A stretch of 58,305 bases of DNA from Oscillospiraceae bacterium (lineage in GTDB: Bacteria > Bacillota > Clostridia > Monoglobales > WRAG01), in contig WRAG01000011.1 in NCBI GenBank assembly GCA_009780345.1, forward strand, positions 1 through 58,305. The letters are read 5' to 3'. Positions 2,535 through 21,566 of the stretch are shown in pieces. Position numbers and translations under genes: made by a program. The notes below the pieces were generated by a model. It saw nothing but the letters and a program-made list of their open reading frames with translations, ran no database searches and was not told where the DNA came from. The first letter of the stretch is position 1; each line of letters starts with the position of its first letter.

Positions 2535-2632
2535 ATGTGGAGTTATCAAAAGAATTTACAATACCCGATTAAGGTAAAAAATCCAAACCCGCGCTTAGCA
2601 AGCTATATTGTATCACAATACGGCGGCCCTGA
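2535..2632 (+). CDS. cotJC: cotJC segment 1 of 3 (codons 1-32), interrupted by element 1
   Basis: The segment reads MWSYQKNLQYPIKVKN..., then SQYGGP, the conserved N-terminus of CotJC, a di-manganese catalase-family spore coat protein. A ribosome site AAAGGAG lies about 14 nt upstream. Homology stops at P32 (codon 2628-2630). The next two bases, GA (2631-2632), are the shared crossover bases; the downstream partner is at 16186-16187. Without excision the frame runs 15 more codons into the element and stops at 2676-2678, giving a useless 47-aa product. Joining to 16188 restores GAC GGC GAG (DGE). Confidence 0.9.
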
Positions 2633-2652
2633 GTGCCAAACTATGTTTTTAG
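2621..2652. other. attL of element 1
   Basis: cotJC sequence CGGCGGCCCT meets the element at crossover GA (2631-2632). The element-side half-site is 2633-2652. Its CCAAACTATGTTTTTAG is an imperfect inverted match (12 of 17) to CTATAAATTCAGTTCGG at the other end (16167-16183). Confidence 0.75.
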
Positions 2653-2659
2653 TTTGTCC

Positions 2660-4231
2660 TCAAACTATTGATACATAAGGGTTTGAGAATTTCCAGTTTA
2701 CAACTATTTCCTTTTCCGCTGTGATTTCTACTCGGTCAATCAGCTTAAAAAGTATAGATTTTTCTACTATGTCAAAATTAGATATTTCTTTAATTATTGA
2801 CATATAATCAATGGGAGTTTTGGGAGCTTGCTCGGCTTTCATTTTGTCGGCAAGTTTAATATATTTTTGGCTTAAAAATTCCTTTTCCTCGTTATACTCG
2901 CCCGACATAGACAAAAACAGATCTTCATCAATTACGCCCTTTAACTTGTCCAAATACAACCCTTTTATAATTTCTTTAACCTCGGCAAGTTTACGGCTAA
3001 TGGTTTCAAGTTCGGTTTCGATTTGCTTTCCTCTCTTGACTTTTAATCCCTCAAACTCTTTGTAATAATCATCATTCAAGGTATGATTTGCCATAGCCTT
3101 TAACTCGTCTATAACGTAGCTTTCAACGACATTTTCGTACATTTGGTGATTAGTACAAACGCTTGGGCCGTATTTAGTGTAAGTCATACATAACATCATC
3201 ATTTTTTTAGACTTACTACGCCGATATGTCATTTTCGCTCCACAATCTTGGCAGAACAGCAAGCCGTTTAATAAATGCGGTGCTTCTTCGGGTTTCGCAT
3301 AATGGACAATACGCTTTTCTATAAGTTCTTGTACAGCGTGAAAATCTTCGGACGATATAATTGGCTCGTGCGTATTTTCGACGATAATCCAATTCTTGCG
3401 ATCAATTTTTCTGTACTTTTCCAACTTATAATTGATTTTCTCTTGCCTACGCTGTGTCATGCTTCCCATATAAGACGGATTTGTCAAAGTATTCTTAATT
3501 GTTTCCTGTGTCCAACGATACTTTTTTAACATAGCATTTTTATATGTGCTTGTGTGTAACTTGTACTTTGCAGGGCAAGGCACACCCTCATTATTCAAGT
3601 TTTTAACAATTCCACACATACTAATGCCGTTCATATAATCGTTAAATATCCGCCGTACCACCTTTGCGGCTTCCTCATCAATTAAAAATGCGTTTTTGTC
3701 ATTCGGGTCTTTGATATATCCGTAAGGAGCGAACGCTCCGATAAACTGTCCGTTCTTGCGTTTGGTATCCATAGCAATCCGCACTTTTTTTGATATGTCT
3801 TTTGCATACATATCATTTATAACGGACTTGAACGGTGACATATCATTGTTATTGCTTTGTGAAAATGTATCTATTCCGTCACCCAAAGCAATATACCGCA
3901 CATTTTTTTCGGGAAAATACCGCTCCAAATAATAGCCTGTATCTATGTAATCTCTACCTAACCTTGATAAATCTTTGGTAATTACGAGATTAACCTTTTT
4001 ACTCTCGATGTCAGCTATCATTCGCTTGAAGTCGGGGCGGTCATAATTCAACCCCGAATAGCCATCATCAATATAGATGTCTACGATATTCCAACCTTGC
4101 TCTATGACATACTGCGTTATAAATTCCTTTTGATTTGCTATACTTTCCGATTGCTCGGAGCTTTCGTCCTCCTTTGATAACCGCAAATAAATTGCAACCT
4201 TGTATATTATTTCTAAAAAGTTATTAAACAT
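2660..4231 (-). CDS. Large serine recombinase (element 1 integrase/excisionase)
   Basis: The 523-aa site-specific recombinase is the likely enzyme that inserts and excises element 1 at cotJC. The N-terminal resolvase domain (about residues 10-160) begins VAIYLRLSKEDESSEQSES, with the catalytic serine in RLS or the following S. ITKDLSRLGRDY is the conserved arginine-containing motif. A recombinase domain, a zinc ribbon (FCQDCGAKM ... LCM ... VCTN, about residues 325-365) and a C-terminal coiled coil follow. The 3' end lies 28 bp from the crossover, typical for such integrases. The start overlaps the upstream 54-aa ORF, with an AAGGAGG site. Same enzyme class as SpoIVCA, which excises skin. Confidence 0.95.
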   Translation of the reverse strand: MFNNFLEIIYKVAIYLRLSKEDESSEQSESIANQKEFITQYVIEQGWNIVDIYIDDGYSGLNYDRPDFKRMIADIESKKVNLVITKDLSRLGRDYIDTGYYLERYFPEKNVRYIALGDGIDTFSQSNNNDMSPFKSVINDMYAKDISKKVRIAMDTKRKNGQFIGAFAPYGYIKDPNDKNAFLIDEEAAKVVRRIFNDYMNGISMCGIVKNLNNEGVPCPAKYKLHTSTYKNAMLKKYRWTQETIKNTLTNPSYMGSMTQRRQEKINYKLEKYRKIDRKNWIIVENTHEPIISSEDFHAVQELIEKRIVHYAKPEEAPHLLNGLLFCQDCGAKMTYRRSKSKKMMMLCMTYTKYGPSVCTNHQMYENVVESYVIDELKAMANHTLNDDYYKEFEGLKVKRGKQIETELETISRKLAEVKEIIKGLYLDKLKGVIDEDLFLSMSGEYNEEKEFLSQKYIKLADKMKAEQAPKTPIDYMSIIKEISNFDIVEKSILFKLIDRVEITAEKEIVVNWKFSNPYVSIV

Positions 4232-4388
4232 TAGGTATATCCTCCTTATGCTTAATAACTAATCGCTTTTGTATATTAGATAAATCAAGTCTTTTAACGC
4301 CTTGCGCAAGCAAGTCTATAAATTTTTCACCTTGTTCGTTATAAATGTTTTCGATAGTATAAGTAAGTCTTTTTTTATTTTCAACCAT
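4224..4388 (-). CDS. Small recombinase-coupled protein (54 aa)
   Basis: A 54-codon ORF (start MVENKKRLTYTIENIYNEQG, end HKEDIPNV) overlaps the recombinase start by 8 nt (ATGTTTAA), so translation is coupled. It is basic and helical with a SHOCT-like or short helix-turn pattern (GEKFIDLLAQGVKRL). Small coupled ORFs next to large serine recombinases often help excision or regulation. It is a candidate recombination directionality factor for element 1, by position only. Confidence 0.6.
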   Translation of the reverse strand: MVENKKRLTYTIENIYNEQGEKFIDLLAQGVKRLDLSNIQKRLVIKHKEDIPNV

Positions 4389-4773
4389 ACTTATCACCCA
4401 ATATGATGTATATGAGTGATTTCGCTTGTCCTATGGCTCTAGTTTATATATTCGCTTTTTTGTGCGAAAATCCTCTTTTTTAGCACAAGAAAAAACAAAC
4501 GAATTTAACCGTTTGTCAAAAGTCCATGTCTAAAAATTATTTTTATCTAGGTACAAATTAGGTACACTTTTTTCATTTGCTATCATTTTGTGATAAGTCA
4601 TGAAAATTCACAAATGCCCTAATTATGGGATATTGACCTATATGCAGTTATGAACGGTTTATGTATTCTTGTTTCCGGTATTCTCCACCAAAATGACATA
4701 AAATGCCGTAATTGCGGCACTGGTAAGTGTTTTATAGCGTTTTAGGTACACTTTAGGTACACTTGAAACATAT
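4389..4773. other. attP-like region of the tyrosine integrase
   Basis: The non-coding stretch holds four copies of TAGGTACA in two pairs, each pair with 11-bp spacing: 4548/4559 and 4743/4754. Between them is TTCTCCACCA (4681-4690), which looks like the 3' end of a tRNA or tmRNA (the usual core target of tyrosine integrases). An AT-rich hairpin-forming segment (TGCCGTAATTGCGGCA, 4703-4718) lies next to it. Paired arm-type repeats on both sides of a core-like sequence resemble an intact attP. No cloverleaf or tRNA gene is present. Confidence 0.45.
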
Positions 4774-6051
4774 TTAACTGAATAAAGGATTTTTTGTAGC
4801 TGCTGGGCTTTTGAAAAATTCTTTTTTCATGCTTGAATTTATTAAGTTTAAATCTATATTGTAATTATCTTCAATCAAGTCCAATTCTTCAATTATTACA
4901 TCTTCGACTTCGGGGAATAAATGAGCATAAGTTTCTAATACCACAGCAACGGTATCGCCTAATCTATAAGCAATAAGTTCAACCTTGACACCTTTACTAA
5001 TTAAATAACTTGCGTGCGAATGTCTAAATTCGTGGTTTGTAATTCTATTTATTTCTATGCCGTATTTTTCTTTTACTAATTTAAAAGAAGAATCCTTTAC
5101 GTTATCTATTGATTGGCTTGCTAAATGCCTATTGCCGCCAAAGACAAACCATTTTTCATTAAATCCCTCAAGTTCCTTATAATGCTGATACAATTCCAAC
5201 AATAGATTTTTCAATATTATTGGCATTTTAATTGTTCGGTTTTTTCGATTTTTCGTATTGGTGATTTTAAATCTATTACCATACTCATCACGTTCGTCAG
5301 TTTTTGTTGTAACAGTTTTAATAATTCGTACTTGATTAGTATTCCATAATATATCTTCCCAAAATAATGCCTGTGCTTCGCCTTTTCTAACTCCCATATA
5401 GTATAAAAAAGCAAAAAATACTTTATACACTATCTTATCAATAACACTTGCAAATAGATTATATTCAACAGGCGTAATGTATCTGATTTTTTCTTCATCA
5501 GCAATTACTGTTTCACTTTTATCGTGAAAATTACTTACTATCTTTGCAACATTTTCTTTTAATCCACAAAATTCAACACCATAGTTTAAAGCTGTTCGGA
5601 ATTCAGAAATTAGTGCTCTCTTGTATTTAAGAGAATATTTTCTGTCTTTGCTATATGTTGCTTGGTTGATTATAGATTTCCAATCTATAATCACATTAAC
5701 TGTTATATCGTGAATATTAATTTTGCCAAAATGAGGCAAGATGTGGTTTTTAATACGGCTAATTTTAGAATACTTTGAAGAACCTTTTATTCTTTTTTCG
5801 GTATCGGTATAACTTAAATATTTAGAATACATTTCCTCAAATGTTATATCTATTTTGGGATTTGTATTACCTACTTCCTGTTGTATTTTGTTATCTACCA
5901 AAAATTGGATTTCAGCCGTTTGGGCTTGCTTCTCTGTTGCAAATTTTTTGCTTTTATTTCGGTCTTTTACACCATTAACTTTTATATATTTGACGGAAAA
6001 ATACCATTTTCGTCCGTCTTTTGTAGCTGTCTTTGATTCATATACAGCCAT
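4774..6051 (-). CDS. Tyrosine-type site-specific integrase
   Basis: The 425-aa phage/ICE integrase catalyses cutting and rejoining via a tyrosine. The N-terminal AP2-like arm-binding domain (KWYFSVKYIKVNGVKDRN) is followed by a SAM-like core-binding domain (about residues 65-175) and the catalytic domain. Catalytic residues can be placed: Arg in MGVRKGEAQALFW, H..R..H in HEFRHSHASY, and Tyr in LETYAHLFPEV. It resembles Tn916/ICE-type integrases. The start is 2 nt from the stop of the DUF3173-like gene. It does not match the cotJC junctions, so it is probably a second recombination module carried within element 1. Confidence 0.93.
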   Translation of the reverse strand: MAVYESKTATKDGRKWYFSVKYIKVNGVKDRNKSKKFATEKQAQTAEIQFLVDNKIQQEVGNTNPKIDITFEEMYSKYLSYTDTEKRIKGSSKYSKISRIKNHILPHFGKINIHDITVNVIIDWKSIINQATYSKDRKYSLKYKRALISEFRTALNYGVEFCGLKENVAKIVSNFHDKSETVIADEEKIRYITPVEYNLFASVIDKIVYKVFFAFLYYMGVRKGEAQALFWEDILWNTNQVRIIKTVTTKTDERDEYGNRFKITNTKNRKNRTIKMPIILKNLLLELYQHYKELEGFNEKWFVFGGNRHLASQSIDNVKDSSFKLVKEKYGIEINRITNHEFRHSHASYLISKGVKVELIAYRLGDTVAVVLETYAHLFPEVEDVIIEELDLIEDNYNIDLNLINSSMKKEFFKSPAATKNPLFS

Positions 6052-6053
6052 TT

Positions 6054-6323
6054 CTATATTTTCCTATCATTATTGACTTCCTTTTCTAACATAGCCATTT
6101 TTGCTATGTAGTCAATATCCATATTTAGGTAATCAATAACTTTAGACATAAGAACTTTCTTTTCTTTGCCACCCAAAAATTTTTTACCGCTCTTTAATAT
6201 GTCGGATTCAATTTCATTTCTAATTTGGCGAGCGTTATCTCGACCATTACCGCATAACTGCTTAATATCATTTACATTCGCCCATTGCTTGCTTATTAAG
6301 ACAAACAATTCACCATAAGTCAT
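6054..6323 (-). CDS. DUF3173-like integrase-associated DNA-binding protein
   Basis: The 89-aa helical protein is encoded directly upstream of the integrase. The segment NVNDIKQLCGNGRDNARQIRNEIE looks like a helix-turn-helix, followed by a region of the type KKVLMSKVIDYLNMD seen in DUF3173 proteins. These often sit next to tyrosine integrases of integrative elements and may act as excisionases or regulators. Assignment is by pattern and context. Confidence 0.6.
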   Translation of the reverse strand: MTYGELFVLISKQWANVNDIKQLCGNGRDNARQIRNEIESDILKSGKKFLGGKEKKVLMSKVIDYLNMDIDYIAKMAMLEKEVNNDRKI

Positions 6324-6415
6324 ACCAATACCCCCTTAATTGGCGTAGCAATATGTAATGATACATACATATTACTACAATTTACTATTTTTCTCAATGA
6401 TTTAACTATCTGTCA

Positions 6416-6655
6416 TTACTCTAAATCAAGCCTTACTTCTTCAAGTTTGGCAAGCAAATTTTCCAAACTTTTATTATCCATATTAATATATTTTGATTTT
6501 TTAATAAGTACACTTATTAGACTCTCTACAAACTCTACATTGTCTAACTCCTGTATAACTCTATCCTTTGACTTAATTATCCTTTTGGGATTGCCGAGCA
6601 ATCTATACTTCACGCAGAAATTGATTATTTCTTCTGCTAATTCTATTTTTTCCAT
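6416..6655 (-). CDS. Hypothetical helical protein (paralogue A)
   Basis: The 79-aa protein has no recognised domain. It is predicted all-helical (ELAEEIINFCVKYRLLGN ... VEFVESLISVLIK ... LENLLAKLEEVRLDL). It shows the same spacing of conserved positions as the neighbouring 94-aa protein: E(I/L)..EII...KY at the start, (F/I)(V/I)E.L in the middle and LE..L..LE..R at the end. The pair probably arose by duplication. Codon use is AT-rich like the rest of element 1. Function unknown. Confidence 0.6.
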   Translation of the reverse strand: MEKIELAEEIINFCVKYRLLGNPKRIIKSKDRVIQELDNVEFVESLISVLIKKSKYINMDNKSLENLLAKLEEVRLDLE

Positions 6656-6676
6656 AATACCCCTGTTTCTATTTTC

Positions 6677-6961
6677 CTACTGGCTTACCAGTTGGCTTTT
6701 TTCTTCTAAAAATTGATCTAAAAATAACATTGTTTTTCTATTTTCTAATTCTATTAAAAACGTTTCCAATCTTTTTCTATCCCTTAGAAATCTTTTTAAA
6801 CGTATTTCTTGGTGTAATCTTCTTAAAAGATTTTCTATAAAGATAATGCTTTCTATTCTGCTTGTTACCTCTTTTGCTATCAAAACTTCATTGTCCATTT
6901 CGATTATATTGAAATATTTGTAATAGTAAATAATTTCGTTTACTAATTCGTATGTGTTCAT
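6677..6961 (-). CDS. Hypothetical helical protein (paralogue B)
   Basis: The 94-aa predicted helical protein begins MNTYELVNEIIYYYKYFNII and has IIFIENLLRRL in the middle and LETFLIELENRKTMLFL near the end. It aligns with the 79-aa product of the next gene, 21 nt downstream, so the two form a duplicated pair in one transcript. It lies between the regulator at 7004-7486 and the integrase module. No function can be assigned. Confidence 0.6.
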   Translation of the reverse strand: MNTYELVNEIIYYYKYFNIIEMDNEVLIAKEVTSRIESIIFIENLLRRLHQEIRLKRFLRDRKRLETFLIELENRKTMLFLDQFLEEKSQLVSQ

Positions 6962-7003
6962 AAAACATAACCTCTTTCTATTTTTTTGCTTACAAAAAAG
7001 ATG

Positions 7004-7486
7004 TTAGGCTAATACTTTGATCCTAACATCTTTCTTCAAACATTGATTATCTAATCCAAGCGAGGATAAAAATTTAATGCAAGCACTTTTTCTAACTTGC
7101 CTAACCTTTTTATGTCCCCAGTTGATAACCTTTGCAATATCATATTCATTTTTATTTTCATAAAACGCATAATGAAATACATCTAATTCCAATTCGTTCA
7201 ATTTCTTTAAAGATACTGTTATCTTGGAAAATAATCTTTTTCTATAATAATCATTTTTTATTTTAGATATTTCTTTTATCAAAATAAAATCTTCTATCGC
7301 TGAATTGCTAATAGGCATAATTTGTTCGTAACGAACTTGATAACCTCTTGTAATCCTTGGGATATTTATTTTTTCGTTTGTGCTTTCTAAATACTGAAAC
7401 AACTTAAAAATATCTAATATGATATTCCGCAGACCTACATAACTGTATAAGTCTAACAACTTTTTGTTTAAAACTTCATTTTTCAC
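7004..7486 (-). CDS. Sigma-region-4/ArpU-like transcriptional regulator
   Basis: The 160-aa protein has a C-terminal helix-turn-helix of the sigma-70 region 4 / phage ArpU type: LELDVFHYAFYENKNEYDIAKVINWGHKKVRQVRKSACIKFL. Here the segment 'YDIAKVINWGHKKVRQVRKS' fits turn and recognition helix. The N-terminal half is helical with no recognised domain. Such proteins control late or transfer genes in phages and integrative elements. It probably regulates the downstream small genes or the whole module. The regulated targets are unknown. Confidence 0.65.
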   Translation of the reverse strand: MKNEVLNKKLLDLYSYVGLRNIILDIFKLFQYLESTNEKINIPRITRGYQVRYEQIMPISNSAIEDFILIKEISKIKNDYYRKRLFSKITVSLKKLNELELDVFHYAFYENKNEYDIAKVINWGHKKVRQVRKSACIKFLSSLGLDNQCLKKDVRIKVLA

Positions 7487-7953
7487 TCCCTCTTTACCTC
7501 TTTTACCTCTCTTTCTATTTCAACCAAAAAGAGCAGTAAATTACACGCAAAAATGTAATGTACTACTCTTTTAAAATACAAAATAATTTATATCATTGGT
7601 TACTGCTTGGATACAATTATTCCGTATCATACAATATTTTATCACACTAAAAGGCATAGTCAATGACCTAAAAAAGGGCATACTTCAAGGCGCAAAAAAG
7701 GGCAGTCAAAACTTGATTTGCCCTTGTAATTACTGGATTTGAAGTCATAGGCATTTGATATAGCATTTGCCTATTGACAAGGGTAGGCATTTTTTAAATA
7801 AAATTATTTCGTCTCACTTCTCGACAAAAAAGGAACTCGCCGTTTAAAAAGCGAATTCCATTTTGTCTAAAAATCAACCTCATTGTATATATTGCATTTG
7901 GAGTTTATAATACAAGGGTAAATTTTGTTATTCTCTTGAAAGTTTGCGTTATT
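7487..7953. other. Intergenic region with three hairpins
   Basis: No ORF is seen. 7525-7573 is a long imperfect inverted repeat (AAAGAGCAGTAAATTACA against TGTAATGTACTACTCTTT). 7699-7726 is AAGGGCAGTCAA / TTGATTTGCCCTT. 7828-7865 pairs GGAACTCGC with GCGAATTCC and, on the minus strand, is followed by T6, so it is the likely terminator of the operon starting at 9018. AAAAAGGGCA occurs twice near 7671-7703. Confidence 0.6.
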
Positions 7954-8595
7954 TTAGTGCAGGGCTGCGTTAAACAAATTATAATAATCTATATTAAATA
8001 AATCATATGTAGTACCATACCATAGCAATACACCTATTAATACTATAAACATCATATTTATAATATACAAATACGAATATTTGCGAAAAGGTTTTTTAAA
8101 GTGTTCCGCACAGTCTTTTGAGATGTCTTCATTACTACAATTAATACAATGTCTTTCTGTTGTTTTAACAGCTTCTTTTCTTCTAAATTTGTTACAAGAA
8201 TTGCTTATTGGTTTACCCGATAATTTTGAAATGCAAAACATCAATAAAAAAAGAATATTGAAAACAAATATTCCCACCAATGCAGATACCCAAGAAATCG
8301 TAAATATATGAACGTATCGCAATGATTGAAATGCTGACATTAAATTAATTCCCCCAAAAACTACAACAACGACTGCAATAAAAACACCCATAGCAGATAT
8401 TGCATTAGGCAATAAGTCTTTGATTTTATTTTCTTGTTTTTCAACAACATCATTTATTTTTTGTTCTTGGTCTTGCAATATTTTTATAAGACTGTCGGAC
8501 ATCGTTTCAATCCTGCTTGATTGCTTTTCTGCCGCTGTTGCGATTTCGCCTATTTTATTCATTAAAGATTCAAGCGTTGGTGTATTATTTGACAT
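7954..8595 (-). CDS. Membrane protein of unknown function with N-terminal coiled coil
   Basis: The 213-aa protein has a coiled-coil-like N-terminus (residues 1-45, IGEIATAAEKQSSRIETMSDS ... ). TM segments lie near 47-70 (MGVFIAVVVVVFGGINL), 84-110 (WVSALVGIFVFNILFLLMF) and 178-197 (MMFIVLIGVLLWY). A cytosolic loop carries a Cys cluster, HCINCSNEDISKDC, that could bind zinc. It lies 3 nt after the 139-aa gene and ends at a terminator, so the two form a closed two-gene operon. Function unknown; a defence, exclusion or signalling role is only a guess. Confidence 0.65.
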   Translation of the reverse strand: MSNNTPTLESLMNKIGEIATAAEKQSSRIETMSDSLIKILQDQEQKINDVVEKQENKIKDLLPNAISAMGVFIAVVVVVFGGINLMSAFQSLRYVHIFTISWVSALVGIFVFNILFLLMFCISKLSGKPISNSCNKFRRKEAVKTTERHCINCSNEDISKDCAEHFKKPFRKYSYLYIINMMFIVLIGVLLWYGTTYDLFNIDYYNLFNAALH

Positions 8596-8598
8596 ATA

Positions 8599-9018
8599 TT
8601 ATCCCCTTGCTGTTTTTATGTTTTTTTTAATATACATTTCTAATTTTTCTGATGCTGTTTCTAATTTCTTGTTACTGCTTGACAATTTTGATATACTTCC
8701 ATCAGCAATGCGAATAAGTTCGTAAAAATCTGTTTCAGCAGGCTTTTCAGCAGGCATCAAACTTTCTATTAATTCTCTTAGCAATTCTTTTTTTAGCATA
8801 TCAACGTCTCTGTCTGCTGCTGATTTTCCGTCCATATCAATATCTCCTTTTTTATCTTTTATTTGATAATCAATCAAATAGTATTCTTTAAGTATTTTTA
8901 TTAAAATTAAAAAACGTTCATCTGTTATAATGTATTTTTCGACAAATGTTTCTGAATATCCTTTTTTTATAAAATATTCTTTTAATATTTCCGCAATTGC
9001 AATATCTAAACCATCCAT
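8599..9018 (-). CDS. Hypothetical helical protein, partner of the 213-aa membrane protein
   Basis: The 139-aa predicted helical protein has an N-terminal half with EILKEYFIKKGYSETFVEKYI. A central acidic linker (KGDIDMDGKSAADRDVDM) precedes a C-terminal helix with heptad-like spacing, SKLSSSNKKLETASEKLEMYI. The AGAGGGA ribosome site lies 6 nt before the ATG. It is the first gene of a two-gene operon, with a palindrome upstream (9068-9091). No family recognised. Confidence 0.6.
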   Translation of the reverse strand: MDGLDIAIAEILKEYFIKKGYSETFVEKYIITDERFLILIKILKEYYLIDYQIKDKKGDIDMDGKSAADRDVDMLKKELLRELIESLMPAEKPAETDFYELIRIADGSISKLSSSNKKLETASEKLEMYIKKNIKTARG

Positions 9019-9067
9019 AAAATCCCTCTAATTCTTCTTGAATTTAATATTACAATACCATTATTTC

Positions 9068-9091
9068 CATGATTTGTAAAATCAAATCATG
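9068..9091. promoter_or_regulatory. Palindromic operator-like site
   Basis: The 9-bp inverted repeat CATGATTTG/CAAATCATG has a 6-bp spacer. It sits where a minus-strand promoter for the 9018 operon would lie (TTTACA, 17 bp, TATTGT overlaps it). It is a candidate binding site for the XRE protein encoded next to it. Confidence 0.45.
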
Positions 9092-9105
9092 ATATTTTTG
9101 GAAAA

Positions 9106-9143
9106 CAAAAAAAGATAATGATTAAAAAATAACCATTATCTTC
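9106..9143 (-). terminator. Terminator of the resolvase-XRE operon
   Basis: On the minus strand, AAGATAATGGTTA pairs with TAATCATTATCTT, followed by T-rich sequence, about 45 bp after the XRE stop codon. Confidence 0.6.
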
Positions 9144-9184
9144 TTCGTTAGCCTACTTGTGGTAACTCTGCCTATTTACTAATA

Positions 9185-9406
9185 TCATTTTTTATTACAA
9201 ATTATTCCAACATCATCATAAAATACATCGTCAGGATTTAACTCGAAAATACTAGATATTTTAACCGCCATATAATAACATAACTTCCGCTTTCCATTTT
9301 CTAATTGCCAATAATAAATCCGGCTAACGTTTAACAACTTCCCCATATCAGCACAACTATAATTTCTTTCTGACCTCAATCGTTTTAATTTGTATAACTT
9401 GTTCAT
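9185..9406 (-). CDS. XRE-family helix-turn-helix regulator
   Basis: The 73-aa Cro/C1-type DNA-binding protein carries the HTH in residues 7-60: LKRLRSERNYSCADMGKLLNVSRIYYWQLENGKRK, with MAVKISSIFELNPDDVF as the following helix. It overlaps the end of the upstream resolvase gene by 4 nt (ATGA), so the two are co-translated. It probably represses recombinase or neighbouring operon expression. The palindrome at 9068-9091 is a possible target. Confidence 0.85.
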   Translation of the reverse strand: MNKLYKLKRLRSERNYSCADMGKLLNVSRIYYWQLENGKRKLCYYMAVKISSIFELNPDDVFYDDVGIICNKK

Positions 9407-10026
9407 ATTACTTCCTTTTCTTGTATTTCACTAACCGCACTACATAGGTTGTAAAAAGCGGATTTTTTTCTGCCCGATAATTTTAGTGCAGTATTCAAAG
9501 AAATTTGTCCGCTTTGATATTGATTTACAATATTTATTTCTTCCTCGGTGATTACCGACTTCGCTCGCCCGAACTGTTTTCCGTTTGCTTGTGCGACAGC
9601 GATCCCCTGCGCTTGTCGTTTTTTTCTGATTTGCCATTCATAGTCAGCTTGAAAAGATAAAATATGTAGCATGATATTTCGAATAAATCGCCCAAATAAG
9701 CTATTGTCCGCTTGGTCTGTATCAATTAGCGGAGTGTCTAAAACTTTTATTATAACGCCGATTTGCCTTGTCAGTTTATACCATTCGTCAAGAATTCCGT
9801 CATAATCTCGGCTAAGTCTGTCAATGTTTTCAATGTACAGAATATCGTTCATTTTAAGTTGCTTTGTAAAGCAATGATAAGCTTTTCGCTCTGGGCTTTT
9901 ACCGCTTTCTTTCTCAATAAGGATATTTTCCATTGGTACGCCCAACTCTTTCATTCTTATTATTTGTCTTTCGGTGTTTTGATCTTTTGTAGAAACTCGG
10001 ATTAAGGCATATTTTTGTCCTATCAT
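9403..10026 (-). CDS. Small serine recombinase (resolvase/invertase family)
   Basis: The 207-aa protein has a catalytic N-terminal domain (residues 5-145): YALIRVSTKDQNTERQ contains the nucleophilic serine, and NIDRLSRDYDGILDEW the conserved Arg motif. The long E helix (SFQADYEWQIRKKRQAQGI) and a short C-terminal HTH (INTVNQYQ ... LNTALKLSGRKKSAFYNL) follow. The size is that of a resolvase/DNA invertase, not of a large integrase. Overlap with the XRE gene suggests autoregulation. The perfect palindrome 10072-10107 directly upstream of its promoter region is a candidate recombination or operator site. Confidence 0.92.
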   Translation of the reverse strand: MIGQKYALIRVSTKDQNTERQIIRMKELGVPMENILIEKESGKSPERKAYHCFTKQLKMNDILYIENIDRLSRDYDGILDEWYKLTRQIGVIIKVLDTPLIDTDQADNSLFGRFIRNIMLHILSFQADYEWQIRKKRQAQGIAVAQANGKQFGRAKSVITEEEINIVNQYQSGQISLNTALKLSGRKKSAFYNLCSAVSEIQEKEVI

Positions 10027-10337
10027 TGTTGTACCGCCCCTTTACTTTTTACACAAAGCATAACAAAACACAGCAGTCCACGAAAGGTAGACCTTTCGTG
10101 GACTGCTCGTTAATAATAACATTCGTATGTTTTCGTGTCAACACTTGACACAAAAATACGGAATTATTGTCTATTTTGACAAAAAACATACATCGAATTT
10201 GTGCAATATTGCTAAAAATGCAATTCCATTTAAAGTCTACTTTTGGCGGAAACGTACAAGTCAACTTCATATCGTGCATATGAGGTTTTTTCGTGGAAAA
10301 AATAATGAACTAAAAATTATAGAAAAGAGGCTTTAAA
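10027..10337. promoter_or_regulatory. Divergent control region with two palindromes
   Basis: The gap lies between the divergently transcribed resolvase and stalk-protein genes. 10072-10107 is a perfect 17-bp inverted repeat (AGCAGTCCACGAAAGGT, AG, then its complement) without a T-tract. 10135-10151 is GTGTCAA-CAC-TTGACAC. 10162-10180 holds TTGTC-N6-GACAA. These look like protein-binding or recombination sites. I do not see a clear SigA promoter for the + strand gene. Confidence 0.5.
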
Positions 10338-11066: not shown

Positions 11067-11083
11067 ACCGAAAGGTGATGAAT

Positions 11084-12299: not shown

Positions 12300-12301
12300 A
12301 T

Positions 12302-12340
12302 AATGGCAAGCATTGAAATAATGCTTGCCATTTTTCTTTT
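12302..12340. terminator. Rho-independent terminator between convergent units
   Basis: AATGGCAAGCATT/AATGCTTGCCATT, with loop GAAAT, followed by TTTCTTTT. It terminates the + strand cargo operon. Confidence 0.9.
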
Positions 12341-13175: not shown

Positions 13176-13196
13176 ACAAACTCCCCCTAAAATTTT

Positions 13197-14570: not shown

Positions 14571-15198
14571 AATTTGATACCTCCTCTAAGCGCATGATTT
14601 CAATATTGGAATATGCGTTTTGTAAAACTTGTAACATTCTTCTAACTTTGGGATTGTTGGTAATCCAAGTTTGGCTATCATAGTTTAGATAATTTGTTTT
14701 TACATTATTTTCAAATGTGTTTTTGTTTTTCGGGTGCAATTCAACTTCAACCGCTTTTTGTGTTTCACCTTGATTGATAACAAAATCGGGATAACGCTTA
14801 CGAAGTCCAAAACCGTTTAATGAGTTTAGCTCTTTTTCGGTCACAATATCGTCTAAACTGATATTATATTTATTCAAAAAATAAATTGCCGTATCTAAAA
14901 CATGAATATCGTGTGTAATACTATCAAGGCGGATTGTTTCCGCTCTTTTATTAACTCCGATTAATTTTCTGCCTTTATGGCTCAGCGTGTACAAATACGG
15001 AACTCCGAAGATGTATTTTTTACGCTCTAAAAATCCTGCTTCAACTAAGATTTTTAATCTTCTGTCGGTCGCTCCTAAACTGCTATAATCTGCAAACGCT
15101 TTAATGTGCCGACCTAAACAAAATCTAAATCTATAAACTACATTTAAGATTTTATAATCTCTTTTTTCTAATCTCATATTTTTATTTATAAAAATCAC
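14557..15198 (-). CDS. Replication-relaxation (Replic_Relax)-like protein
   Basis: The 213-aa protein has an N-terminal winged-helix half with RRLKILVEAGFLERKKYIFGVPYLYTLSHKGRKLIGV, typical of the Replic_Relax family seen next to coupling proteins on Gram-positive mobile elements. The C-terminal half has RYPDFVIN...AVEVELHPKNK, a D...ExE pattern like a restriction-endonuclease-fold core. The family is thought to bind an origin. It lies beside the candidate origin hairpin at 15411-15473. Whether it nicks DNA is unknown. Confidence 0.7.
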   Translation of the reverse strand: MIFINKNMRLEKRDYKILNVVYRFRFCLGRHIKAFADYSSLGATDRRLKILVEAGFLERKKYIFGVPYLYTLSHKGRKLIGVNKRAETIRLDSITHDIHVLDTAIYFLNKYNISLDDIVTEKELNSLNGFGLRKRYPDFVINQGETQKAVEVELHPKNKNTFENNVKTNYLNYDSQTWITNNPKVRRMLQVLQNAYSNIEIMRLEEVSNYVSK

Positions 15199-15742
15199 CT
15201 CTTTATTTTAAATATTATTGGGAAGGCTCCCCTGTCTTAAAAGAGTTAAGAAAGGGGAACCTGTACGGGCGGGCGGGACGAAAGGGGAAAGATTTGATTA
15301 CTACCTAACCTCTCACTACTATACTAACTACTACCTAACACCACACCTATATCCAAACACATACCACCAAAACCCCACCCCACCCACAAAGAAATATTAC
15401 CAACGTAGTAATACAGGGGTCTCGGGTGTTTTCACAACCTTTTTTTATCAAAAAACAGCCGAGACCCCTGTATTGCGGAGTGGGGAATCGCCCTAAATAT
15501 GGGGTTTTGGTGGTGTGTATCGTAAAATTATTATATGTATATGCCATGCAGGGTCGTGAAATTACAGGATTATTACAGCGGGAAATATTCGTTTAAGCCA
15601 TTTTTGTATAAGAAAAAGACACTTGCAATTTTTTGCAGATGTCTTTTTTAATTCACGAACGGAGCTTGTCCGTTAAATGCCTATAAAAATTTTTATTTCA
15701 GTATTAACGTAGTAATTGTTCAACTTTAAATATATTTTCTAT
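15199..15742. other. Candidate origin (oriT/replication) region
   Basis: No credible gene is seen. 15300-15400 is low-complexity CTACC/ACCCC-rich sequence. 15411-15425 and 15459-15473 are perfect 15-bp inverted repeats (ATACAGGGGTCTCGG) with a 33-nt A/T-rich loop. TATTAC-N7-GTAATA lies just before it (15395-15413). ACGTAGTAAT recurs near 15403 and 15703. 15613-15650 is an intrinsic terminator-like hairpin with T6. The site lies just upstream of the Replic_Relax gene, where an origin of transfer is expected. Confidence 0.45.
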
Positions 15743-15928
15743 TTATGATTCATATTTTTTAAAAACATCGAATAGTCTTTTTTCTATATATTTTCTATTT
15801 ATAAATTTGTCTTCAGGGTAATAATTTATAACCCTGAAATTCATTTTATCTTTACTGATTGTATCTATATGCTTTTGCTCATTATTCTTATAACCTTTTT
15901 TTAGATATGTTTCGTTTTTATCATTCAT
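15743..15928 (-). CDS. Small basic protein near the right end of element 1 (61 aa)
   Basis: The ORF begins MNDKNETYLKKGYKNNEQ and ends YIEKRLFDVFKKYES. It is very Lys/Asn-rich and basic. A good AGGAG site sits about 9 nt before the ATG. It is close to the element 1 right junction, so it may belong to the recombination machinery; size (about 60 aa) is like known recombination directionality factors. No domain is recognised. Confidence 0.5.
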   Translation of the reverse strand: MNDKNETYLKKGYKNNEQKHIDTISKDKMNFRVINYYPEDKFINRKYIEKRLFDVFKKYES

Positions 15929-16185
15929 AGAATCACGCTCCTACTATCTTAATAAAACGATTTTAACATTTTAATTTCAATTTGTCGACGAAAATTAAAA
16001 TTATATTTAAGTCTTTTTATTTCAATCTCTTTTATTTAATAATTAAATATTTTTTCAGCGATTAGTTATTAAGCATTTTAGTAAAATTTTGGTATAACGC
16101 TATAAATTCAGTTCCCCCTGTTGCACCATATAGAGCCGTGTTTTCCTTACAGCCATAAGGGGTGCGCTATAAATTCAGTTCGGGG
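15929..16185. repeat. AT-rich right-end region of element 1 with 17-bp direct repeats
   Basis: No gene is seen. CGCTATAAATTCAGTTC occurs at 16098-16114 and again at 16165-16181, 67 bp apart in the same orientation. The second copy touches the crossover. Such repeats next to an att site could be accessory recombinase-binding sites. Confidence 0.7.
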
Positions 16186-16200
16186 GACGGCGAGCTCGGC
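16165..16200. other. attR of element 1
   Basis: The element ends with CGCTATAAATTCAGTTCGGGG and crossover GA (16186-16187). cotJC resumes with CGGCGAGCTCGGC at 16188. Joined to 2632, it restores P32-D33-G34-E35 in frame. Confidence 0.75.
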
Positions 16201-16274
16201 GCATCTTTGCGATATTTATCGCAGCGATTCTCAATGCCTGATGGTATTACAAAGGGATTGCTGACCGATATAGG
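16188..16274 (+). CDS. cotJC: cotJC segment 2 of 3 (codons 33-62), flanked by both elements
   Basis: The 87-nt stretch reads (D)GELGASLRYLSQRFSMPD, then GITKGLLTDIG, which is exactly the missing middle of CotJC between the two other segments. It includes metal ligand E35. It has no start codon of its own and ends at the second junction, where TEVSK-stop follows if element 2 is not removed. Its presence shows that two separate insertions hit the same gene 85 bp apart, instead of one long element. Confidence 0.92.
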
Positions 16275-16294
16275 AACCGAAGTATCGAAATGAC
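16267..16294. other. attL of element 2
   Basis: cotJC GATATAGG meets the element at 16273-16274 (GG). The element half-site contains GTATCGAAATGAC (16282-16294). Its inverted partner GTCATTTTAATAC is at 21136-21148 (11 of 13 positions match). Confidence 0.75.
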
Positions 16295-16650
16295 GATTCT
16301 GGCTTTCAAGTAAGATACATAAATGTGAATGCCTTATTTTAACAATAGGAAGAAGCGGACAAATCTATGGAAAAGGAAAAAGAGTTTACGATGCGAGAGT
16401 TATTATGAATATATAAATAAAAAACACCAACACATTTGCCAATTTTAATGTAAAAATTCGAAAGAATATATTGATTTTCCGAGGAATAAGTGATAAAATG
16501 TGTTACTAAGTGAATGTTTGGGTTTAGAAAAATTACAAAGGAATTTCGGACTTGAAAATAGGATTAAATCTATTCCGTTGTGCGGCATTGTGTGTGATAT
16601 AAACAGACATAAAAATATAAAGTTATTTCATTTTAATTTGGAGGTGCTTT
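16283..16650. other. Leader region of the methyltransferase gene in element 2
   Basis: No convincing gene is seen. Short readable stretches occur (about 16338-16394, and from about 16495 overlapping the next start) but neither has a ribosome site. They might be decayed coding remnants. A good ribosome site (GGAGGTG) precedes the gene at 16651. Confidence 0.4.
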
Positions 16651-18342
16651 ATGAAAAAGGAACTTCAAAAAACATCTGATATAGACAAAAATATTATGCA
16701 ATATTTTAGACGCTATGCATCTAGGGATTCCGGTAACGGAGATGTTTATACTCCGAAAGAAATAGTGCAACTTATGGTTAAGCTTTGCCAACCGTCCGCC
16801 GGAACAATTTATGACCCTTGTTGCGGAAGCGGGGCTTTGTTAATAGGCGCTGCTGATTATGTAAGTGAAATTAAAGACATTAATTTATATGGTCAATGTG
16901 AAAATAGGGATACATACTGTCTGTGCAAAATCAATTTGTTTTTAAGAAATTTAGAAGCTAATTTGGAAATTCAAGATGATAAAGACGTTTTAAAAGATTT
17001 GCAACCAGGCTTAAAAGCAGATTACATTTTACTTAATCCGCCATTTAATCAAAATAATTGGGGAAAAAAGTATTTAAGAAATGATCAACGATGGCGTTAC
17101 GGAATACCTCCTGAAAAAAACGCTAATTTCGCTTGGTTGCAACACGCGATTTCCCATATGACTGATAATGGAAAAATTGTTACAATTATGCCTAATGGAG
17201 CCATGTTTAGCAAAATGGGGAATGAAAAAATCCGTGCGGCAATTATTGAGGATGACCTGATTGAATGTGTTATAACATTGCCAGGGAATCTTTTTTTCAA
17301 TACCAAGGTTCCTTGCTCAATTTGGATATTGAGTCGCAAAAAAGCACGAAAAGGCAATATTCTTTTTATTGACGCCAGAGATACGGGTTCTCTGTCCGCT
17401 TGGAAAAGAGTTCTGGGAGAAGATGATGTTTATGCAATTATTTCAGCTTACACAAATTTTAAAAACGAAGATATAATTGATATAGATATTCCTTACGCGA
17501 TCGCGACTATGGAAGATGTTGCTAATCAAGGGTACGATTTGTCTCCGGTAAGATATATAAAATATGAGTATAAAAAGTACAACGAGGCCGAACATAAAAA
17601 GAGTTTGGAACAGCTCAAAGAGAACGTGGATCGACTAATCGGTGAAAAAATCCTATCAGACAACAGATCAAAAAAATTATTGGATGATATAAATTTAAAA
17701 GCAAAATGGAGTAAACGAAATTTAACGGATTTATATGAAGTTTTTGGAGGGGTGGCTAAAAAAGGCAAGGAAAATTATGGGCATGGTTCTCCTTTTTTGA
17801 ATTTAAAAACAATTATCAATAATTTTTTTGTACCATATGAACTTGACGAATTGGTAAATTCAGACAAATACGAAAAATATACTCATTCTATAAAATCCGG
17901 AGATGTTTTTTTATCGCGCACAAGCGAGGACGCAGGTCAATTAGCCTTAAGTTGTGTTGCTTTAAAAGATTACTCCGAAGCAACATTTAACGCGTTTTCT
18001 AAAAGATTGCGACCGATAGATGATATGATAGATTCAAAATATGCTGCCGCGTATTTTCGTTCAGATTTTATTAGGCAAACTATAAAAAATATGGTATATG
18101 CTACTACTCGCGCTACACTTAATAATGATATGTTGTCTCGTATGCCTATTATATTTCCACCCAAAGATGAACAAATAAAAATTGGAGAGCTTATTTATCA
18201 GATCTCGCTAACAATAGAAAATGATAAAAATTTATCGAAAGAGGATATCAATAAGATTAAGAAAATTCAACAAGCAGTATTGGATTGCTTTATTTCTGAG
18301 CCGATTTATTCTTTTTTGCAAAGAGGAGAGTTAAACTTATGA
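16651..18342 (+). CDS. N-6 DNA methyltransferase fused to specificity (HsdS-like) domain
   Basis: The 563-aa adenine methyltransferase of a restriction-modification system has motif I YDPCCGSGALL (near residue 55) and motif IV LLNPPFNQN (near 130). The fold is HsdM-like (N6_Mtase). From about residue 340 to the end it has a target-recognition half, with a helix rich in KK and ending IINNFFVPYELDEL ... NNDMLSRMPIIFPPKDEQIKI, a classic HsdS end (I.PP..EQ..I). So methylation and recognition are in one chain. It overlaps the HNH nuclease gene by 4 nt (ATGA). GGAGGTG lies 6 nt before the start. Confidence 0.88.
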   Translation: MKKELQKTSDIDKNIMQYFRRYASRDSGNGDVYTPKEIVQLMVKLCQPSAGTIYDPCCGSGALLIGAADYVSEIKDINLYGQCENRDTYCLCKINLFLRNLEANLEIQDDKDVLKDLQPGLKADYILLNPPFNQNNWGKKYLRNDQRWRYGIPPEKNANFAWLQHAISHMTDNGKIVTIMPNGAMFSKMGNEKIRAAIIEDDLIECVITLPGNLFFNTKVPCSIWILSRKKARKGNILFIDARDTGSLSAWKRVLGEDDVYAIISAYTNFKNEDIIDIDIPYAIATMEDVANQGYDLSPVRYIKYEYKKYNEAEHKKSLEQLKENVDRLIGEKILSDNRSKKLLDDINLKAKWSKRNLTDLYEVFGGVAKKGKENYGHGSPFLNLKTIINNFFVPYELDELVNSDKYEKYTHSIKSGDVFLSRTSEDAGQLALSCVALKDYSEATFNAFSKRLRPIDDMIDSKYAAAYFRSDFIRQTIKNMVYATTRATLNNDMLSRMPIIFPPKDEQIKIGELIYQISLTIENDKNLSKEDINKIKKIQQAVLDCFISEPIYSFLQRGELNL

Positions 18343-19205
18343 GAAAAATAAATATAGGAGAACAATATCAGCTTGTTTTACTGCAATCAATCATGGAGTT
18401 GGGTGGTTCTTGCGCAAAATCTGAAGCATTAGAAAATATTCAAAATAATGCGTACTGGAAAATGAATGATGAAAATGACAGTTTTCGAAATTCAAGAAAA
18501 TCTGAACAGATATGGCGTAATGAATTTGCGCAAGCAAGAAGACGTCTTAAAGACCTGAAATACATAAGAGGAGAAACTCGCGATGTATGGGATATAACAC
18601 CGCAGGCAAGCGGATACCATAAGGAATTATCACAACGCATGGTGATAGAAATGTACGGCACTCGTTTTATCTTTACCGAAAAATTCTATAATAAAATAAG
18701 TTTTGAATTTGCAGAAAATATTGAAAGTGAAGAAGATGAACAATTAATACAAAATACATTTTTTGAACATTTTAATTTGGACAAAAAAGAAATAAAGTTA
18801 AAAGATATCCCAAAACCTAAAGGAAATGCCGCAAAAATAATAGGCTCTCGAAAAATTTATACAAGAAACCCTGTAATTTCACAAAGAGCGCTTGCGCTTG
18901 CCGATCATTTATGTGAAGTGGATGCTACCCATACTTCGTTTATTCGACGTAATGCTGATGTTTTATATATGGAACCGCATCATTTTATTCCTATGAAGGA
19001 AACTGAACGCTTTGAAGTAAGTTTGGATAGAGAACGAAACATAATATGCTTATGTAGTAATTGCCATAATCTTTTGCATTACGGGAACAAAGAGAGCGTT
19101 AAAAAAATGTTAACTTTTTTATTTAAAAAAAGAAAACTTGCTCTTACTAAAATACTTGGCAGACAATTATCTCTTGAGGAATTATTCAAAATATATCAAG
19201 TTTAA
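18339..19205 (+). CDS. Restriction endonuclease, winged-helix (Mrr_N-like) plus HNH domain
   Basis: The 288-aa protein has an N-terminal winged helix (about residues 5-95, VLLQSIMELGGSCAKSEALE ... WDITPQASGYHKEL), as seen in Mrr-type nucleases. A C-terminal HNH nuclease (about 195-250) carries MEPHHFIPMKET, then ICLCSNCHNLLHYG. The His-Asn-His ligands and CxxC zinc motif are present. It is probably the cutting partner of the upstream methyltransferase, making a compact two-gene R-M system with HNH chemistry. It ends near a strong terminator. Confidence 0.85.
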   Translation: MRKINIGEQYQLVLLQSIMELGGSCAKSEALENIQNNAYWKMNDENDSFRNSRKSEQIWRNEFAQARRRLKDLKYIRGETRDVWDITPQASGYHKELSQRMVIEMYGTRFIFTEKFYNKISFEFAENIESEEDEQLIQNTFFEHFNLDKKEIKLKDIPKPKGNAAKIIGSRKIYTRNPVISQRALALADHLCEVDATHTSFIRRNADVLYMEPHHFIPMKETERFEVSLDRERNIICLCSNCHNLLHYGNKESVKKMLTFLFKKRKLALTKILGRQLSLEELFKIYQV

Positions 19206-19251
19206 TTTTGGCAGTTAACATTTCATATCGGACAAGCTGAGTATCATAAAC

Positions 19252-19287
19252 TAATACCAGACAAAAATTTGTCCGGTATTTTTTTAT
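19252..19287 (+). terminator. Rho-independent terminator after the R-M operon
   Basis: ATACC-A-GACAAA pairs with TTTGTC-C-GGTAT and is followed by T7. It separates the R-M genes from the recombinase unit. Confidence 0.85.
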
Positions 19288-19318
19288 ATTCAAAATCAAA
19301 TTGAAATGAGGTTGCCCA

Positions 19319-19513
19319 ATGGCGGCAAGATGTTTTAAACTTATAGAAATCACTAAAGCTGAAAGTCAAATTGACGATAATATAATTAAAAACTTTACAA
19401 CAAATTTTCAAGAAGCGTTACTACTGTCGCTATTGGAGAAGAGTCTCCTGAATCAATGGCAGTTTGAGCAATGCATGGAAGAAATAAAGATAAAAGGGAC
19501 TTACAAGCGATGA
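19319..19513 (+). CDS. SHOCT-like small protein next to the recombinase
   Basis: The 64-aa protein ends with the pattern LLSLLEKSLLNQWQFEQCMEEI, a SHOCT-like helical pair (two short helices) often seen in small proteins near clostridial recombinases. The ribosome site is GAGG about 9 nt upstream. The large recombinase follows 32 nt later. It could be a regulator or directionality factor for element 2; evidence is positional. Confidence 0.65.
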   Translation: MAARCFKLIEITKAESQIDDNIIKNFTTNFQEALLLSLLEKSLLNQWQFEQCMEEIKIKGTYKR

Positions 19514-19545
19514 TATAAATAGGCTATAATGTTGAAAATGAGGCG

Positions 19546-21156
19546 ATGCGGTTGTATAATGTAAATTCAGTCGATAAAATCCAAAAGGTGGCGGCTTATT
19601 GTCGTGTGTCAACGGACAAGGACGACCAGGTGAACTCTTTGGAAAGTCAAAAGAAATTTTTTCGAGACTACATAGAGCACAACGCATTTTGGGAACTTAC
19701 CGAAGTGTATGTGGACGAAGGAATAACCGGAACTTCCACTAAAAAACGTCATGCTTTTAATCGAATGATGATTGATGCTGAAAACAGGCAATTTGATTTA
19801 ATTATAACGAAAGAAATCAGTCGTTTTGCCCGGAACACGTTGGATAGTATTTTCTATACCCGAAAATTAAAAAACATTGGTATCGGCGTTATTTTTATGA
19901 ACGATAATATCAATACTTTGGATGCTGATGCCGAACTTCGACTGACTATTATGTCGTCGATTGCGCAAGAGGAAAGCCGCAAGACTTCCGACCGTGTGAA
20001 GTGGGGGCAAAAGCGGAGAATGGAACAAGGCGTAGTATTCGGCAGAGATATGTTGGGGTATAATGTACGAGGCGGCAAGTTGTATATCAACGATGATGGC
20101 GCGAAAATTGTGCGGCTTATTTTTCATAAATTTGTCAACGAAGGGAAAGGCACTTATGTCATTGCCCGTGAATTACAGGAAGCAGGACTTCGAACCTCTA
20201 CATATATGAAAACTTGGTCTAATACGGTTATTTTAAGAGTTTTGCGAAACGAAAAATATTGTGGTGACCTGGTGCAGAAAAAGACTTATACTCCAAGCTA
20301 TCTGACTCACGAGAAACGATACAATCGCGGCGAAGAAGAATTAGTTGTACTTCGAGACCATCACGAGCCTATTATAGGCCGAGAATTGTTTGACAAAGCA
20401 CAGTTGGAACTTGCGCGACGTTCGCCGTCAGACGAACAGAAGGCCAAACACTCCAACCGATATTGTTTTTCGGGAAAAATCAAATGCGGGATTTGCAGTT
20501 TTTCGTATGTATCGCGCACAAAAAATCGAAAAAACAAAAGCATATATAAAGCGTGGAGGTGTTATGAAGGTACGCGGCACGGCGCACCGCATATTGATAA
20601 AGCGGGAAATCAAGTTGGATGTTCAGGAATGTCAATTAACGATGATGATACTAAAACTATCTGTCGAGAAGTTGTGAAAAATCTTCAGATTGAACGTGAA
20701 AATATTGTAAATAATCTTGCCGGAATTATTAAAAAGGTTATGGATTCAGAAAATGGCGAAAATAAAATCGAGAATTCACAGTCAAAACTCGCCCAAATAT
20801 CCGATAAAAAACGGCGACTTCTTGAGTTGTATATGAATAAGGATATTAGTAAGCAGGATTTTCAGGAGATGAATGCGAAGTATGATGCGGAATCGATAGT
20901 CTTGGCTGAAAAAATTAGCGTTCATCAAAATCAACAGAAGCTCTCGCAAAGTCAAAATGTTTTATTGGCAGAAATAAATTTAACGTTAAAAGATCTTGTT
21001 TATGGCGATGAATGGAACGATACTTTCTATCGTCATATTTTAGATAAAATAGTGGTTTATAAGAAGAATCAAATTGAGGTGCAACTCAATTTTTCATCCA
21101 CAAAATGGCGGTTTGCAAGACTCCAAGTAGCTGGTGTCATTTTAATACCTCAATAG
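19546..21156 (+). CDS. Large serine recombinase (element 2 integrase/excisionase)
   Basis: The 536-aa protein has a catalytic domain (about residues 10-160) that starts VAAYCRVSTDKDDQVNS with the nucleophile serine. The Arg motif is ITKEISRFARNTLD. The recombinase domain includes LGYNVRGGKLYIND. A zinc ribbon (KCGICSFSY ... WRCYEGTRH ... GCSG) and a C-terminal coiled coil follow. The stop codon TAG is formed by the element end plus the crossover GG (21154-21156), so the gene runs right up to the junction. It is a different lineage from the element 1 recombinase by eye, consistent with separate insertions. Confidence 0.95.
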   Translation: MRLYNVNSVDKIQKVAAYCRVSTDKDDQVNSLESQKKFFRDYIEHNAFWELTEVYVDEGITGTSTKKRHAFNRMMIDAENRQFDLIITKEISRFARNTLDSIFYTRKLKNIGIGVIFMNDNINTLDADAELRLTIMSSIAQEESRKTSDRVKWGQKRRMEQGVVFGRDMLGYNVRGGKLYINDDGAKIVRLIFHKFVNEGKGTYVIARELQEAGLRTSTYMKTWSNTVILRVLRNEKYCGDLVQKKTYTPSYLTHEKRYNRGEEELVVLRDHHEPIIGRELFDKAQLELARRSPSDEQKAKHSNRYCFSGKIKCGICSFSYVSRTKNRKNKSIYKAWRCYEGTRHGAPHIDKAGNQVGCSGMSINDDDTKTICREVVKNLQIERENIVNNLAGIIKKVMDSENGENKIENSQSKLAQISDKKRRLLELYMNKDISKQDFQEMNAKYDAESIVLAEKISVHQNQQKLSQSQNVLLAEINLTLKDLVYGDEWNDTFYRHILDKIVVYKKNQIEVQLNFSSTKWRFARLQVAGVILIPQ

Positions 21157-21168
21157 GCACCGAAGAAC
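21136..21168. other. attR of element 2
   Basis: The element-side arm GTCATTTTAATAC (21136-21148), then CTCAATA, crossover GG (21156-21157), and host cotJC CACCGAAGAACTT. It completes the 42-bp symmetric attP with the attL half at 16275-16294. Confidence 0.75.
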
Positions 21169-21566
21169 TTGGGCATTTAGAAATGGTCGGAACTTTGGTC
21201 ACGCAGCTAACCCGAAACCTTTCGGCGTCAGAAATCGAAAAAAGCCCCATGGGCGCATACTACATTGACCACGGATTGGGAGTGTTCCCGACTTCGGCAA
21301 GCGGAATGCCGTGGACGGCTGCAAGCATGGCAGTAAAAGGCGACCCAATCGCCGATTTAGTTGAAGACTTGGCAGCAGAGCAAAAAGCGCGCGCAACTTA
21401 TGACAATATTTTACGCGTATGCGATGACCCCGATGTAAGCGACGTAATCAAATTCCTGCGCCAACGAGAAATTGTGCATTTCCAGCGCTTTGGTGAAGCG
21501 TTGGATATGGTTCAGAATAAGCGAGATGAGAAGAAATCGTATGTTAACGGAATGAAAAACAACTAA
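21158..21566 (+). CDS. cotJC: cotJC segment 3 of 3 (end of codon 62 to codon 197)
   Basis: It encodes the C-terminal two thirds of the manganese-catalase-like coat protein: TEELGHLEMVGTLV ... AAEQKARATYD ... RQREIVHFQRF. Metal ligands E65, H68, E136 and H169 are at family spacing. There is no ribosome site at 21105, where an ATG frame opens inside the recombinase gene, so the segment is silent unless both elements are removed. It ends before a strong terminator at 21573-21600. Segments 1+2+3 give a 594-nt (198-codon) gene without stops. Confidence 0.92.

Follow-up and report, generated by a model that had tools for sequence, protein, structure and literature searches.

What becomes of a spore-coat gene whose coding sequence is interrupted twice? 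The question is raised by cotJC in the 58,305-bp contig WRAG01000011.1 of an Oscillospiraceae bacterium (assembly GCA_009780345.1), a stretch that was analysed at its whole length and is called the window here. In it, cotJC lies in three pieces separated by a left and a right element, E1 and E2, each encoding a large serine recombinase (LSR). The genome, labelled G000, is a 2.05-Mb assembly of 59 contigs and 96% complete, and cotJC is a member of the σE (mother-cell) regulon (PMC3416734). Our answer, which we hold to be probable, is that E1 and E2 are independent LSR elements at conserved attB sites and that each leaves cotJC precisely in the mother cell.

Joining of three pieces restores cotJC

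The original prediction placed three in-frame cotJC segments in the window, and coordinates, reading frame and profile matches bear this out. All three are on the forward strand, directly behind intact cotJA (1913-2200, forward; Pfam CotJA, 8e-9) and cotJB (2200-2439, forward; Pfam CotJB, 8e-26), as for the CotJC family. Piece 1 (2535-2632) holds residues 1-32 and two nucleotides of codon 33, piece 2 (16188-16274) comprises the 87 bp between the two crossovers, and piece 3 (21158-21566) runs from residue 62 to the stop; each matches its own part of the Mn_catalase profile (1-33, 33-64 and 60-199 respectively). Removal of the 13,555 bp of E1 (2633-16187) and the 4,883 bp of E2 (16275-21157) joins them, as had been foreseen, into 594 nt that encode 197 amino acids and a stop, with no internal stop. 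The joined protein matches Pfam Mn_catalase (5e-56) and keeps all the di-manganese ligands named beforehand (E35, E65, H68, E136 and H169), and its nearest relatives of solved structure are Alr3090 and Mn catalases. The elements had been described as nested in tandem; they are in tandem, but a nested arrangement is ruled out, since they flank the 87-bp middle piece on either side.

The ends of E1 have the dinucleotide GA alone in common (2631-2632 and 16186-16187), which is enough for an LSR and weak by itself; crossover there, at its likely place, gives the canonical joint QYGGPDGEL. The ends of E2 have a core in common, ATAGGAACCGAAG at 16270-16282 and ATAGGCACCGAAG at 21153-21165, identical at 12 of its 13 positions, and the second crossover falls within this ATAGG(A/C)ACCGAAG. 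In the junction of the circle that E2 would form, the core is flanked by inverted arms, which is what an LSR attP should look like. G+C content is 33.5% in E1 and 34.8% in E2, compared to 47.0% in the joined pieces and 45.7 and 47.9% in the flanks. Domain matches confirm that each element has its own LSR beside a junction. LSR1 (523 amino acids; 2660-4231, reverse strand; Resolvase, Recombinase and Zn_ribbon_recom) is at the left end of E1, 28 bp from the junction, and LSR2 (536 amino acids; 19546-21156, forward strand; Resolvase and Recombinase) has its stop codon in the right junction core of E2; the two belong to different clades. An intact cotJC elsewhere in the genome was looked for as well, and the search of G000 returned only the three pieces and no other Mn_catalase gene.

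cotJC is a hotspot for LSR elements across Clostridia

Breaks at the same positions were looked for in related genomes and found. Among 391 genomes sampled across the class, 257 gave an Mn_catalase match, and 46 of these 257, nearly all chosen for want of a full-length hit, were mapped for breaks. Because the break points of the window recur in dozens of genomes, cotJC is split more than by chance; it is a hotspot for LSR elements across Clostridia. There are three break sites, at codons ~32, 62 and 135. Each falls on a metal-ligand motif, where the DNA is conserved: A at GGP-D/N-GE35, B at IGTE-E65-LxH68 and C at DLAAE136.

Unrelated LSR families use these same sites. Site A is occupied by the LSR1 type in the window and in G124 (whose homologue, 62% identical, is the closest to LSR1), and by an unrelated LSR of 475 amino acids in G007, G012, G015, G017 and G019; site B by the LSR2 family and, in G015, G021 and G037, by another LSR type; and site C by further LSRs. 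Most of 80 LSR2-family loci across Clostridia are at site B, with carriers that include Lachnospiraceae, Oscillospiraceae and Ruminococcus. Lactonifactor longoviformis DSM 17459 and Pseudoflavonifractor sp. An44 also have cotJC split at site B. Cargo differs widely between the elements, from restriction-modification islands to prophage-like contigs, and contigs in IMG/VR show a middle cotJC piece between two LSRs. In Lachnospiraceae SUG1763 (L187:3901-8863), cotJC is split and a full-length copy of it stands between the two pieces; the element there thus seems to carry a replacement gene.

Two or more breaks, a site being scored only when both of its flanking sides were seen, are present in ten of the surveyed genomes: at A and B in G000, G015, G124, G154, G181, G286 and G365, at B and C in G312 and G404, and at all three in G204, with cotJC in four pieces. 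This strict count excludes G114, G305, G287 and G353, whose apparent breaks, with adjacent pieces in another frame or not resolved, were rejected as insertions. The double split is found in genomes of very different families, and the claim of a doubled interruption in one gene therefore stands as regards two independent elements but not as a peculiarity of this genome. A draft of 59 contigs might be thought to have misjoined contigs of different elements inside cotJC. We give this almost no credence, as the same double split is present in the single-contig assemblies G015 and G181 and on a 3,276,567-bp contig of G365, the frame is restored exactly and the junction cores match.

The use of the same sites by unrelated LSR families with very different cargo would also suit purely selfish elements, for which cotJC is a dispensable, conserved attB, exit takes place at transfer or induction, loss of CotJC is tolerated and there is no developmental control. 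A second intact Mn_catalase gene is indeed present in several genomes with a split cotJC, and, within one genus, the LSR sequences seem no older than the divergence of their hosts. G000, however, has no second Mn_catalase copy, and related split cotJC copies, in which changes are almost only silent, appear to be under purifying selection. The split copies of G017 and G019 differ by a synonymous divergence (dS) of 0.295 and a nonsynonymous divergence (dN) of 0 over 184 codons, and split G041 differs from intact G032 by a dS of 0.70 and a dN of 0.01; these values suggest, but do not prove, that the split copies are under selection, since insertions may postdate divergence. With the promoter and small-ORF (open reading frame) evidence for sporulation control of the E2 family that is given below also against it, selfish use of a safe site seems to us decidedly unlikely.

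A candidate excision module upstream of LSR2

E2 carries, ahead of LSR2 and on the same forward strand, a σE/SpoIIID-like promoter, ATATCGGACAAGCTGAGTATCATAAACT (19225-19252), and a 64-amino-acid ORF (19319-19513) that is a candidate recombination directionality factor. A short ORF lies directly upstream of the LSR gene in 28 of 32 LSR2-family loci, and the 40 ORFs located ahead of 16 control LSRs included none of this type; iteration of the search within the set makes the hidden Markov model E-values behind this ORF family too favourable. Upstream of the small ORF, the motif ATA-N15-17-CATAnnnT is present in 18 of 61 non-redundant LSR2-family members compared to 2.1 expected, and in one of 29 control LSRs compared to 1.3 expected, which is no enrichment. 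The motif with an embedded RnACAA box, which resembles a SpoIIID site, is present in 13 of 65 family members (0.28 expected) and in none of 28 controls. These family-wide tests are the informative ones, single-region score-based scans for σE sites being mostly not significant. As far as can be read from sequence, this regulatory signature sets the LSR2 family apart, and promoter and small ORF together point to sporulation control of the E2 family. A σK promoter was considered and rejected, the AC-to-CATA spacing of 11-13 nt being too short compared to the σK consensus. ATATCGGACAAGCTGAGTATCATAAACT overlaps the terminator of the preceding operon (hairpin at ~19254-19280), and a transcript starting behind the -10 box would retain only part of the hairpin.

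The layout in E1 is similar but weaker. A 54-amino-acid ORF overlapping the start of LSR1 (4224-4388, reverse strand) is a candidate directionality factor by its position and by likeness judged by eye, and it is preceded by a weak candidate for a σE/SpoIIID-like promoter, CCATAGGACAAGCGAAATCACTCATATACA (4407-4436, reverse strand), with the ATA / GGACAAGC / CATA layout of the E2 site. G124 has a 55-amino-acid ORF at the same place, plus a comparable box; tblastn searches with the E1 ORF gave no homologues beyond chance.

Developmental removal of both elements, which the original prediction had put forward with reserve, gains support from the conserved small ORF, the enriched σE/SpoIIID-like promoter, the undecayed state of the pieces and the uninterrupted spo0A, sigK and spoIIID of G000. 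The lack of decay in the pieces, together with a regulatory signature confined to the LSR2 family, makes permanent inactivation of cotJC less likely. A number of results weigh on the other side. Upstream of cotJA, which served as a positive control, the motif is not enriched (3 of 41; 2.4 expected), and upstream of spoIVA its excess is only modest (4 of 17; 0.75 expected). The RnACAA-CATA box alone is also found upstream of control LSRs (6 of 28; 0.92 expected), the full motif was not found within 450 nt of the LSRs at other sporulation genes of G000, and the LSR1 promoter candidate is not significant by score alone. Moreover, outside the LSR the cargo is not the same in the low-dN pair G017/G019, and the two may therefore have diverged before the insertions took place.

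We regard developmental excision in the mother cell as the best account of these data. In it, σE and SpoIIID would turn on expression of a small directionality factor and of the LSR that goes with it; factor and LSR would together recombine attL with attR, and the element would leave as a circle. Both removals would probably be needed; with the two elements out, cotJABC would encode a complete Mn-catalase-type coat protein. Since the mother cell dies, the spore would keep both E1 and E2.

Gene content of the elements

E2 is a small restriction-modification island. On the forward strand it encodes a type I-like DNA methyltransferase fused to a specificity domain (16651-18342; N6_Mtase, 1e-78, and Methylase_S; PADLOC MTase_I) and a putative Mrr/HNH-type restriction enzyme (18339-19205; Mrr_N and HNH below Pfam cut-offs; PADLOC mREase_IV, 1e-9). 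E1, by its low G+C content and its genes, is like an integrative mobilizable or integrative conjugative element (IME/ICE). Its reverse strand encodes a tyrosine integrase (4774-6051; Phage_integrase, 7e-16), a small resolvase (9403-10026; Resolvase, 1e-19), an M48 peptidase (12339-13175; Peptidase_M48, 1e-22) and a TraD/VirD4-type coupling protein (13197-14570; TrwB_AAD_bind, 4e-16; SXT_TraD family); a helix-turn-helix protein is encoded as well. Near the right end of E1, the direct repeat CGCTATAAATTCAGTTC (16101-16120 and 16163-16182) may perhaps mark recombinase binding sites. No capsid, tail or portal families were found among the main E1 and E2 proteins tested, and a terminase-like PHROG match was discarded as a sign of a phage, being the ATPase domain of the coupling protein.

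Other split sporulation genes in the same genome

G000 has 14 LSR genes, three of them at tRNA genes, which is the ordinary situation. Others adjoin broken sporulation genes. The first piece of spoIVA (C25; L274:1489-2784) ends at DIETEVS, and the final ~70 codons of the gene stand on another contig, joined in frame to the tail of an LSR gene (C3; L297:3555-5468); the two pieces have the 11-bp core ACAGAGGTTTC in common, the C-terminal piece keeps the family consensus, and this split gene, which also has a σE-like site, is the sole spoIVA match in G000. A CwlD-like amidase gene (C6:51514-63859; L295, L304) is split at its GHGG motif by an element of ~11.6 kb with an adjoining LSR, CATGG being common to both ends, and in G332 (L120) an amidase is broken at the same motif; the CwlD label is by resemblance, as G000 has four other Amidase_3 genes. 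An M23-type gene directly downstream of spoIIID (C7:6159-6848; L302) breaks off at GWNQ next to one LSR and continues from GGWRIGIRS next to a second LSR (C35:16110-16463; L293), the C-terminal half alone reaching its Pfam family. C-terminal halves of a D,D-carboxypeptidase (C16; L292:7697-8581) and of an alpha/beta small acid-soluble protein (SASP) (C8; L294:12061-12198) each lie directly beside an LSR; their first halves were not found in G000, and another, intact D,D-carboxypeptidase is encoded on C14.

In two further genomes, G107 (L265) and G067 (L272), spoIVA is cut short after ASAPSIHI, a site that differs from the one in G000. LSR1 relatives in L112 (G204), L108 (G241) and L121 (G314) abut a piece of a sigK-like sigma factor gene and polysaccharide deacetylase pieces, and the LSR1 group may for this reason target several sporulation genes.

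Several interrupted sporulation genes in a small genome of 2.05 Mb, spoIVA among them, might mean that sporulation has been or is being lost and that LSR elements pile up in genes that no longer matter. Several findings speak against such a loss: spo0A, sigK and spoIIID are uninterrupted; the cotJC pieces are free of stops, frameshifts and lost ligands, and the C-terminal spoIVA piece retains its consensus; the double split of cotJC recurs in very different families, with low dN in split copies; and loss gives no reason for a σE/SpoIIID-like promoter upstream of the LSR operon. We consider it unlikely. More tentatively than for cotJC itself, and at somewhat less than even confidence, we propose DNA elimination on a genome scale in the mother cell, with some seven or more LSR elements leaving up to six genes during sporulation: cotJC (twice), spoIVA, the cwlD-like amidase gene, the M23 gene beside spoIIID and those for D,D-carboxypeptidase and SASP. 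A split SASP gene would sit badly with this scheme: SASPs are made in the forespore, and removal of the element could not be confined to the mother cell. If elimination on this scale took place, no spore would be completed until several recombinations were done; programmed DNA elimination in ciliates offers a comparison.

Relation to known systems

Switching a gene off by integration and on by excision is reportedly what Mageeney et al. described in 2020 as regulated gene integrity, with a list said to include sigK, spsM, prkA and others but not cotJC, cwlD or spoIVA. In the cases known to us, an affected gene holds a single element, and no genome has more than two such genes. In the literature, of which our coverage is incomplete, we found no report of an interrupted cotJC or of a genome with several split sporulation genes.

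The closest parallel is skin in sigK of B. subtilis and C. difficile (skinCd; PMC5025042), where an LSR element likewise sits in a sporulation gene of the mother cell. Excision in C. difficile is restricted to the mother cell by a 72-amino-acid directionality factor under σE and SpoIIID (PMC5025042), and the candidate promoter and small ORF of E2 are arranged as in skinCd. In contrast to skin, the target here is the gene of a coat enzyme, a single gene holds two elements with unrelated LSRs, no prophage genes were found in E1 or E2, and excision is inferred from sequence. Precise removal of SPbeta from spsM in B. subtilis (PMC4191935) likewise restores a sporulation gene, but SPbeta is an active phage, unlike the IME/ICE-like E1 and the restriction-modification island E2, two in one gene. 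The gin element in gerE of B. cereus ATCC10987 (PMC5595907) resembles ours in being non-phage and in having a serine recombinase, and its small helper GirX has candidate counterparts here; it is one element with three recombinases, whereas cotJC has two elements, each with its own LSR, and two attB sites. Intervening elements are known also from spoVFB of B. weihenstephanensis (vfbin) and yabG of C. botulinum (yin), both as cited in PMC10747680; these are single, strain-level cases, whereas the breaks in cotJC return at set positions across many clostridial families and come two or three to a gene. E1 and E2 have the structural marks of such sporulation gene-intervening elements (a restored frame, an own serine recombinase and a short core at the ends). 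What sets the case apart from the class is that one gene is interrupted twice, that the same sites are used again and again, and that other sporulation genes of the genome are split as well.

One gene is thus interrupted by two or three independent elements, at three metal-ligand motifs, in at least ten genomes. For the LSRs concerned, natural attB sites and candidate directionality factors are at hand, and so many independent cases allow the comparative question of whether hosts profit from such elements to be asked. If excision in the mother cell is true, it would also explain seemingly broken sporulation genes in draft genomes, and skin and SPbeta would cease to be curiosities and become instances of a layer of sporulation control that is general in Clostridia.

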